DNA of 64,000 bases from Caldicellulosiruptor obsidiansis OB47 (lineage in GTDB: Bacteria; Bacillota; Thermoanaerobacteria; Caldicellulosiruptorales; Caldicellulosiruptoraceae), in contig NC_014392.1 in the NCBI RefSeq assembly GCF_000145215.1, positions 186,001 to 250,000 on the forward strand, in the 5' to 3' direction. The notes beneath the pieces were generated by a model. It was given only the letters and a program-made list of their open reading frames with translations. It was not told the DNA's origin and did not search any database. Both the position numbers and the translations under genes were made by a program. Of the stretch, positions 19,063 to 20,963 are shown piece after piece; the stretch's first letter is position 1, and every line of letters begins with the position of its first letter.

Positions 19063-19091
19063 TTTCAATTTACTAAAAAATATGTTATAAT
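19063..19091 (+). promoter_or_regulatory. Promoter of the TM1266-hydG operon
   Basis: TTTCAA (19063-19068), a 17-base spacer, and a perfect TATAAT (19086-19091). It would start transcription near 19098 and give a leader of about 160 bases that contains the attenuator-like structure. Confidence 0.6.
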
Positions 19092-19111
19092 ATTAACAAA
19101 CTAAACATTTG

Positions 19112-19240
19112 CTCCTGACTTAGAGGGCAAAATGGCCTGATAAGGAGGGGATTGGATTGGAAACTGCAAAAATAAGGTTTGTATCCACCTCTTTTGACTA
19201 AATAAGGTTAAGAAGTCAGGAGAGGTGGATTTATTTTTTT
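19112..19240 (+). promoter_or_regulatory. Attenuator-like leader RNA before TM1266-hydG
   Basis: A strong intrinsic terminator is formed by ATCCACCTCT (19183-19192) with AGAGGTGGAT (19221-19230), extended inside by TGACT/AGTCA and followed by TTATTTTTTT, all upstream of the first gene. CTCCTGACTT (19112-19121) is a perfect 10-base complement of AAGTCAGGAG (19213-19222), which overlaps the right side of the terminator, so the two helices exclude each other. The same 5' strand can also pair with AGGAG at 19143-19147, in a strong internal ribosome site. I do not recognise a known riboswitch class here. Confidence 0.7.
19157..19201 (+). CDS. Possible 14-codon leader peptide
   Basis: AAGGAGGGG (19142-19150) is the strongest ribosome site nearby and is followed 6 bases later by TTG, then GAA ACT GCA and onward to a TAA at 19199-19201, encoding METAKIRFVSTSFD. 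The last codons cover the left arm of the terminator, so a ribosome finishing this peptide would block terminator formation. An alternative TTG at 19152 gives LDWKLQK. Purely sequence-based; no homologue is known to me. Confidence 0.4.
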   Translation: METAKIRFVSTSFD

Positions 19241-19260: not shown

Positions 19261-19506
19261 ATGGAAAGACGAATTGGCGTTATTGGGATTGTGGTTGAGA
19301 ACAGGAAAGAGGTTTCGGATAAGCTCAACAAGATTCTAAGTGACCATGGTGATATTATTGTTGGAAGGATGGGTATACCATATAAAGAAAGAGGGCTTTG
19401 TGTGATTTCGCTTATAGTTGATGGGACAACTGATGAGATTGGTGCGCTCACAGGAAAGCTTGGGTCTTTGAGTGGTGTAAAAGTAAAAAGTGCTCTTACT
19501 AAATAA
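19261..19506 (+). CDS. TM1266-type putative iron-only hydrogenase system regulator
   Basis: 81 residues with an ACT/NikR-C-like ferredoxin fold: RIGVIGIVVENR, LNKILSDHGDIIVGRMGIPY and ISLIVDGTTDEIGALTGKLG. This matches the small TM1266 family, which is found beside hydrogenase maturation genes and is presumed to be a regulator. Here it is followed by hydG after 23 bases, exactly that context. No DNA-binding domain is visible, so it might bind a ligand or act on the leader RNA (speculation). The ATG follows a GAGGG site. Confidence 0.85.
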   Translation: MERRIGVIGIVVENRKEVSDKLNKILSDHGDIIVGRMGIPYKERGLCVISLIVDGTTDEIGALTGKLGSLSGVKVKSALTK

Positions 19507-19529: not shown

Positions 19530-20963
19530 ATGTTTAGAAAAGATGAGTGGGAAAGAGCTGAGTTTATAAATGACCAGATGGTTTATGATATCCTTGAAGA
19601 GGGGAGCAAAAATGTTGATAGAGCGGAAGAAATAATTGAAAAAGCTTTGCAGCTAAATGGACTTGAACCTCATGAGGTGGCAACACTTCTTTATATAGAG
19701 GACAAAGATCTTTTGGAAAAACTTTTTAAGGCGGCAAGGCAGGTAAAAGAGAGGATTTATGGTAAAAGAATTGTGCTTTTTGCACCTCTTTATATCAGCA
19801 ATTTTTGTGTAAATAACTGTCGATACTGTGGTTATCACAGATCGAATACGAAGATGAAAAGAAGAAAGCTTACAATGGATGAGATACGAAAAGAGGTTGA
19901 AATAATTGAATCTCTTGGGCACAAAAGAATTGCTCTTGAGCTTGGCGAAGACCCAAAAGAAGCGCCAATTGAATATGTAGTAGATAGCATAAAAACAATA
20001 TATTCGGTATATAAAGAAAAAGGAAACATAAGAAGAGTGAACGTCAACATTGCTGCAACAACCATTGAAGAATACAGAATGCTAAAAGAAGCAAAAATAG
20101 GCACATATGTACTTTTCCAGGAAACATACCACAGGCCAACCTATGAATACATGCACCCCGAAGGGCCAAAATCAGATTACGACTGGCATGCAATGGCAAT
20201 GGACAGAGCAATGCAGGCAGGAATTGACGATGTTGGGCTTGGAGTGCTCTTTGGGCTTTATGACTATAAATTTGAGGTTGTTGGGCTGATTCTGCATGCA
20301 AAGCATCTTGAGGAAAGGTTTGGAGTAGGACCACATACAATCTCTGTGCCAAGGATTAGACCTGCCGAGGGTGTTGAGGTGACAAAAGAAAGGTATCCTT
20401 ACATTGTTTCTGATGACGAGTTTAAAAAGATCGTTGCAATAATTCGGCTTGCTGTGCCCTACACTGGCATGATTTTATCTACCCGTGAAAGACCAGGTTT
20501 TAGAGAAGAAGTAATTGACCTTGGGATATCGCAAATCAGCGCTGGGTCCTGCACAGGTGTTGGTGGCTACACACTTGAATATGAAGGAAAATCCACGGGT
20601 GATTTAGATGAAGATCTTGCACAGTTTGAAGTAGAAGATAAAAGAAGTCCAGATGAAGTAATAAGGACACTTTGTGAGGCAGGTTATATTCCAAGCTACT
20701 GCACAGCATGTTATAGAAAGGGAAGAACAGGGGATTTGTTTATGCAGTATGCAAAGACAGGTGACATTCAGGACTTTTGCACACCAAATGCGCTTTTGAC
20801 TTTTATGGAGTATTTAGAGGACTATAGCTCTGAAAAGACAAAAGAGGTTGGAAGACGCTTGATATATGAGAGCTTAAATCAAATAAAAGATGAGAGAATG
20901 CGCAAAGAGACAGAAAAAAGACTTGAGATGATAAAAAGTGGAGTAAGAGATTTGTATTTCTAA
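19530..20963 (+). CDS. hydG: [FeFe]-hydrogenase maturation radical-SAM tyrosine lyase HydG
   Basis: 477 residues from the ATG at 19530; an upstream TTG at 19512 overlaps the GGAG site. The radical-SAM cluster motif is CVNNCRYC (CX3CX2C, residues 93-100). The C-terminal auxiliary-cluster motif is CTAC-X22-C, which is the HydG hallmark and separates it from ThiH. HydG cleaves tyrosine to p-cresol, CO and cyanide and builds the Fe(CO)2CN synthon of the H-cluster. hydE and hydF are not in this window. Co-transcribed with the TM1266-type gene behind the attenuator-like leader. Confidence 0.95.
   Translation: MFRKDEWERAEFINDQMVYDILEEGSKNVDRAEEIIEKALQLNGLEPHEVATLLYIEDKDLLEKLFKAARQVKERIYGKRIVLFAPLYISNFCVNNCRYCGYHRSNTKMKRRKLTMDEIRKEVEIIESLGHKRIALELGEDPKEAPIEYVVDSIKTIYSVYKEKGNIRRVNVNIAATTIEEYRMLKEAKIGTYVLFQETYHRPTYEYMHPEGPKSDYDWHAMAMDRAMQAGIDDVGLGVLFGLYDYKFEVVGLILHAKHLEERFGVGPHTISVPRIRPAEGVEVTKERYPYIVSDDEFKKIVAIIRLAVPYTGMILSTRERPGFREEVIDLGISQISAGSCTGVGGYTLEYEGKSTGDLDEDLAQFEVEDKRSPDEVIRTLCEAGYIPSYCTACYRKGRTGDLFMQYAKTGDIQDFCTPNALLTFMEYLEDYSSEKTKEVGRRLIYESLNQIKDERMRKETEKRLEMIKSGVRDLYF

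Follow-up and report, generated by a model that had tools for sequence, protein, structure and literature searches.

A conserved RNA hairpin in the leaders of TM1266 and hydrogenase maturation genes, with TM1266 as its candidate regulator

The window analysed here is a 64,000-nucleotide stretch of Caldicellulosiruptor obsidiansis OB47 (contig NC_014392.1, positions 186,001 to 250,000). It carries a TM1266 family gene followed by hydG, and between their promoter and the first start codon lies a leader with the features listed below.

19083-19098, plus strand: Rex-type operator TGTTATAATATTAACA, overlapping the -10 box TATAAT (19086-19091); identified by sequence, conserved in 12 genomes, with an orthologous site in C. 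bescii
19112-19121, plus strand: alternative (antiterminator) helix, 5' strand, overlapping P1 and P2 of the hairpin
19113-19150, plus strand: conserved RNA hairpin (candidate aptamer or protein-binding motif), from models R1 and R2, covariation and homologues before hyd genes
19113-19116 with 19147-19150, plus strand: P1, UCCU:GGGG
19117-19118 with 19145-19146, plus strand: GA/GA loop between P1 and P2
19119-19122 with 19141-19144, plus strand: P2
19123-19124 with 19139-19140, plus strand: GA/GA loop between P2 and P3
19125-19128 with 19135-19138, plus strand: P3, with the apical loop at 19129-19134
19183-19199, plus strand: terminator 5' arm, its core TCCACCTCTTTTG invariant in 12 genomes
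19213-19222, plus strand: alternative helix, 3' strand, within the terminator 3' arm
19214-19240, plus strand: terminator 3' arm (19214-19230) and T-run to 19240, from sequence and folding
19261-19506, plus strand: TM1266 family gene, 81 aa, NikR-C-like domain, proposed RNA-binding autoregulator (PF21699, NikR_C, TIGR03959, 2NZC homologue)
19530-20963, plus strand: hydG, H-cluster maturase, the putatively regulated gene (TIGR03955, 656.9 bits; Pfam Radical_SAM and BATS)

The TM1266 product is matched over its full length by PF21699 (2.7e-34) and, like NikR, by NikR_C (6e-8). Unlike NikR it has no ribbon-helix-helix DNA-binding domain, and a domain search found no further domain in it. The structure of the T. 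maritima TM1266 homologue has been solved (2NZC). Basic residues at R4, R36, K/R42, K/R44, K/R66 and K/R76 are kept in 89-100% of 141 sequences, which is compatible with nucleic-acid binding, although not proof of it. The window genome also has a second, weaker TM1266/NikR_C-like gene (G000:C1:1063659-1063877, minus strand, 33 bits), and a second copy of this kind is found in most genomes of the class.

In C. bescii, the Rex site 181 bp before the Athe_0168 ATG was chosen for EMSA and reported to be bound by Rex in vitro (PMC6391272). The Athe_0168 unit is described as two genes, "CopG family regulator, HydG", its expression changes by only about -0.2 log2 in a rex deletion, and the authors call the regulon of the CopG-annotated protein unknown (PMC6391272). 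As Rex binds the promoter yet its deletion barely matters, the leader would be a second layer of control.

Twelve genomes of the genus have the TM1266-hydG leader. Promoter, 5' element and terminator are nearly letter-identical among them while the intervening sequence drifts, and TCCTGACTT and GTCAGGAGAGGTGG are unchanged in 12/12. The leader folds at -46 kcal/mol, with a z-score of -4.8 against dinucleotide shuffles (0/200 as good). A reading of this DNA made earlier from its letters (the sequence-only reading) had placed a strong terminator at 19183-19240, before the first gene, and this is confirmed: 19183-19199 and 19214-19230 form 17 pairs followed by a T-run, upstream of the TM1266 start codon at 19261. 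The exact complementarity that it had noticed between CTCCTGACTT (19112-19121) and AAGTCAGGAG (19213-19222) likewise holds, with zero mismatches, and in this leader the duplex of the 5' strand with the terminator 3' arm has p = 0.01 in a per-leader shuffle. Its further claim, that the two helices cannot coexist, is right for the upper half of the terminator, but the first 8 bp (19183-19190/19223-19230) are compatible with the 10-nt pairing. The clash becomes complete because the hairpin 3' strand and linker sequence are also able to pair with the terminator 5' arm.

The 5' strand had also been thought to pair with AGGAG. That motif is present at 19143-19147, but a better pairing joins UCCU (19113-19116) to GGGG (19147-19150), flanked by GA loops. 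The predicted hairpin, 19113-19150, reads UCCU GA CUUA GA GGGC (N6) GCCU GA UAAG GA GGGG, with three 4-bp helices and two 2x2 GA/RA internal loops between them. As CCUGA-N4-RAGGG stands on both strands, the structure has pseudo-two-fold symmetry. The hairpin is, as predicted, two half-sites CCUGA-(P2)-RAGGG, each made of a helix, a tandem G.A-type internal loop and a helix, and both half-site consensus strings recur in an alignment of 81 matches.

The genus model R1 reached close relatives only, and we therefore built a wider structural model. R1 did match directly before TM1266 in another family of the same class (G014 at E 3e-8, G013 at E 0.004), and the same motif, often in two copies, was seen in the leaders of about 100 TM1266 genes of the phylum. 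An exhaustive enumeration with a structural descriptor gave a match in 22/110 TM1266 leaders, where shuffled sets averaged 0.4, and model R2, trained on 19 of these 22 leaders, found about 50 further copies in leaders. On 80 named loci, R2 made 51 matches; 49 have the same orientation as TM1266, and most lie no more than 500 nt upstream of it. The matching loci include Syntrophomonas, Caldicoprobacter, Desulfosporosinus, Halanaerobium and Caloranaerobacter within the phylum and Syntrophus, Solidesulfovibrio and Desulfonauticus beyond it, with weaker candidates in Lentisphaerae and Atribacteria MAGs. The predicted motif family is thus present in many Clostridia and some other phyla, often as tandem copies. 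No similar DNA was found in a phage collection.

Covariation was seen in 8 of 11 pairs in alignment A3 (19 sequences), with a score of 0.673 against 0.229 when shuffled and 0.19 when partners were slid by one column. In alignment A5 (81 matches) the score was 0.572 against 0.189 shuffled. Since both sets had been chosen with the structure in mind, we ran a selection-free test in which the search pattern held only the conserved loop and flanking letters and left the P2 bases free. Among its 51 distinct matches, P2 was fully paired in 33, in 16 different combinations, against 5.1 expected from permuting the partners (maximum 12 in 2000 permutations), and the mean number of paired P2 positions was 3.49 of 4 against 1.94 permuted (maximum 2.45). 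Compensatory changes of this kind are what a structured cis-regulatory RNA should have. The sequence-only reading had looked to homologous leaders for support, and there the strands are conserved and the paired helices covary. Variant leaders either have a first loop with AA in place of GA at its 5' side or are of a Thermoanaerobacter type without terminator (L177, L179, L258-L261, L263).

We scanned 399 genomes with R2 and examined 28 loci. Twenty lie before TM1266, hydG, hydE(-hydG) or aspA-hydF; of the remaining 8, one is at a contig edge by a hydrogenase-like ORF, two precede an ECF-transporter S gene, and five have no hyd genes downstream, four of these five being in genomes without TM1266. 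Placement upstream of functionally related genes is therefore consistent. The leader had been described as an element of the TM1266-hydG operon, and it is present there, but it is not specific to that operon, and we rejected the idea of a motif confined to TM1266 leaders. At some loci the motif is at hydG while TM1266 sits in another operon or is divergent (L212, L220, L224, L227, L228, L230), and at others separate copies precede TM1266 and hydG (L188, L189, L199).

Gene arrangement varies in further ways. An additional copy between TM1266 and hydG (L092:1765-1798, L093:1768-1800, L171:861-894) would give one operon two control points. A tandem motif with a terminator stands ahead of an aspA-hydF operon at L222:2563-2656 (minus strand). 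In the window genome hydF adjoins an aspA-like gene (L360), and neither hydE nor hydF-aspA has a motif there. TM1266 is often linked to hyd genes without a detectable motif, and no recognisable motif lies directly upstream of TM1266 in Athalassotoga and Mesoaciditoga (L319, L323) or in Clostridium drakei and C. carboxidivorans (L329, L339).

A terminator (at most -10 kcal/mol, within 150 nt downstream of the motif) follows the motif in 50 of 53 cases, against 7.3 of 53 with shuffled downstream sequence. When the antiterminator was tested by shuffling leader by leader, the combined p-values were 0.009 and 0.002, the effect in any one leader being modest. The strands are G-rich, which explains the weak per-leader significance and makes swapping terminators among leaders the better control. 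In that test the hairpin 3' strand preferred the 5' arm of its own terminator over those of other leaders (p = 4e-4) and the hairpin 5' strand preferred its own 3' arm (p = 2e-4), while the two other orientations of strand and arm, used as mismatched controls, gave p = 0.14 and 0.15. The pairing of 5' strand with 3' arm thus appears to be a general feature, with a nested partner. These leaders have the parts of a transcription attenuator, a terminator between motif and gene and a mutually exclusive antiterminator made from the motif strands, and we think it very likely that the window leader belongs to a conserved family of cis-regulatory RNAs working by attenuation. The control by premature termination proposed from the sequence is to that extent supported; its suggestion of a riboswitch is not established.

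With no ligand, the terminator state is about 9 kcal/mol more stable in the full-length fold; the choice must therefore be made during transcription and read-through must be kinetic. Folded step by step, the window leader forms the hairpin at transcript ends up to 19217 and the antiterminator at 19222; from 19227 onward the hairpin stands together with the terminator. Thermoanaerobacter-type leaders have no terminator, and there hydG has its ribosome-binding site in the hairpin 3' strand (such Shine-Dalgarno, or SD, variants are L230, L258 and L263). By either design, stabilising the hairpin should turn expression OFF.

RNA structure, conservation, gene context, terminators, alternative pairings and the co-occurrence of the motif with TM1266 were all computed here. 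Among the 399 genomes, HydG is found in 213 and TM1266 in 206. At 20 hydG loci from genomes without TM1266, R2 made no match (0/20) at E <= 1 in 82 kb, whereas at 20 hydG loci from genomes with TM1266, chosen so that TM1266 was placed elsewhere or had little motif, the motif was found in 13, all in sense and just upstream of hydG (Fisher p = 6e-6). At the level of genomes, the motif is present in 0/32 without TM1266 and 53/206 with it (p = 1.6e-4). A check for missed TM1266 genes found none above the curated cut-off in 37 genomes (0/37). Contrasts within families (f7, f38, f70, f43) agree, although they control only partly for phylogeny, short of a full tree-based test, and some matches in f38 and f43 are weak (15.5 and 20.8 bits). 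The motif at hyd genes is apparently restricted to genomes with TM1266. An element that occurs only with the regulator gene in the genome points to a protein-controlled leader rather than a riboswitch, although co-occurrence is no proof of contact. Matches in five genomes without TM1266 (G264, G275, G320, G357, G145) were set aside, as their count is at chance level and no hyd genes lie downstream where examined.

That TM1266 binds the RNA, which way control runs and whether an effector takes part are inferred from comparison. TM1266, a NikR-C-like domain of ACT type and probably a dimer or tetramer, would bind and stabilise the hairpin, possibly in response to an iron- or H-cluster-related effector. 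The stabilised hairpin would withhold its strands from the terminator arms, so that the terminator forms and TM1266-hydG (elsewhere hydE, hydG or aspA-hydF) is turned off; with no bound factor, the hairpin strands would pair with the terminator arms and RNA polymerase would read through. Where the hairpin holds the hydG ribosome-binding site, binding would block translation instead. On the available genomic data it is reasonable to regard TM1266 as probably an RNA-binding regulator of the hyd leader hairpin, and the proposal as a whole, that TM1266 binds the hairpin and represses the H-cluster maturation genes by attenuation, as the reading we would favour with some reserve. We would give roughly even chances to a broader view in which TM1266 is the first of a new class of RNA-binding regulators: a NikR-C/ACT-like domain, devoid of a DNA-binding part, that as a dimer reads the pseudo-symmetric hairpin through its pair of tandem G.A loops, responds to iron or H-cluster status and provides feedback at the RNA level on an organometallic cofactor pathway in several phyla.

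The proposed arrangement may be compared with two known systems. PyrR is a small regulator encoded by the first gene of the pyr operon, whose leader contains an RNA site and an antiterminator/terminator, and its binding favours termination. TM1266 is likewise the first gene of its operon, behind a leader with its proposed RNA site. PyrR, however, is a phosphoribosyltransferase whereas TM1266 is a NikR-C-like domain; the PyrR RNA (RF00515) has no match in the window and reaches only 17.8 bits at L202 against a gathering threshold of 54; and the TM1266 motif, unlike the pyr site, is also found at unlinked hydG, hydE and aspA-hydF. RAT hairpins, the targets of LicT/SacY dimers, are imperfect, pseudo-symmetric hairpins of about 30-40 nt with two similar internal loops, and the hyd hairpin resembles them in being imperfect and pseudo-symmetric with two such loops. 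Unlike RAT, which overlaps its terminator and causes antitermination when bound, the hairpin of the window leader ends 32 nt upstream of the terminator, and no PTS-type protein is at hand.

It is possible, though in our view rather unlikely, that the hairpin is instead a riboswitch aptamer for a small molecule of H-cluster synthesis (for example Fe(II), the iron-CO-CN synthon, or tyrosine or SAM derivatives), TM1266 co-occurring because it serves the same regulatory strategy without touching the RNA. The near-invariant loop bases and variable helices would suit an aptamer, tandem copies abound, a trait shared with cooperative riboswitches, and terminator and SD outputs behind a conserved hairpin with an exclusive antiterminator are typical of the class. 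In two genomes of one genus (G073, L201:1501-1533; G280, L213:1501-1533) the motif serves as ribosome-binding site for the gene of an ECF-transporter substrate-specific component (PF12822), downstream of trpS; this placement of a transporter component under the motif fits a metabolite sensor equally, and the component's substrate could hint at the effector. Against an aptamer, the motif is missing at hydG in 20/20 genomes that lack TM1266 despite the same chemistry, its distribution follows a protein, no known class in Rfam 15 matches it, and a hairpin of 38 nt that has neither junction nor pseudoknot is small as metabolite aptamers go.

The sign of control could also be the reverse, a factor on the hairpin promoting read-through or translation, since the direction is deduced solely from the mutually exclusive pairings. 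We consider this improbable, as SD-type leaders hold the ribosome-binding site in the hairpin 3' strand and terminator-type leaders need both hairpin strands for the antiterminator. Still less probable is a passenger role for TM1266, with the hairpin used by a different protein that binds RNA or by some general sensor of translation or of polymerase speed: tandem G.A loops are targets of various proteins and TM1266 is linked to the RNA by co-occurrence, but the motif correlates with TM1266, which is co-transcribed behind it at most loci. An ordinary constitutive terminator with chance complementarity and no switch, which the terminator state being the most stable full-length fold would allow, can hardly be reconciled with the conservation across phyla, the compensatory changes and the permutation tests.

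For years TM1266 has carried the annotation "putative regulator" of iron-only hydrogenases, with neither a known target nor a DNA-binding part, and a motif that follows TM1266 provides a concrete and easily tested target. If true, the proposal explains the tuning of [FeFe]-hydrogenase maturation after transcription start and adds an RNA family, perhaps also a new RNA-binding fold; biohydrogen strains, Caldicellulosiruptor among them, would gain a control point in the motif. Within the scope of Rfam 15 and the open-access literature, the hairpin family at hyd genes is previously undescribed. No paper in that literature joins hydG with an RNA motif, and the main text of the large RNA-discovery surveys consulted does not mention hydrogenase genes. 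Rfam 15 at the gathering threshold gave no match in the window, which agrees with the absence of any known riboswitch consensus in the sequence-only reading. Relaxed scans of three leaders gave sub-threshold, non-recurring matches only, and across 20 related loci only TPP and TwoAYGGAY were matched, neither on the motif. The TwoAYGGAY match (L098:1841-1906; 46 bits, E 3e-4) lies downstream of a TM1266 gene.
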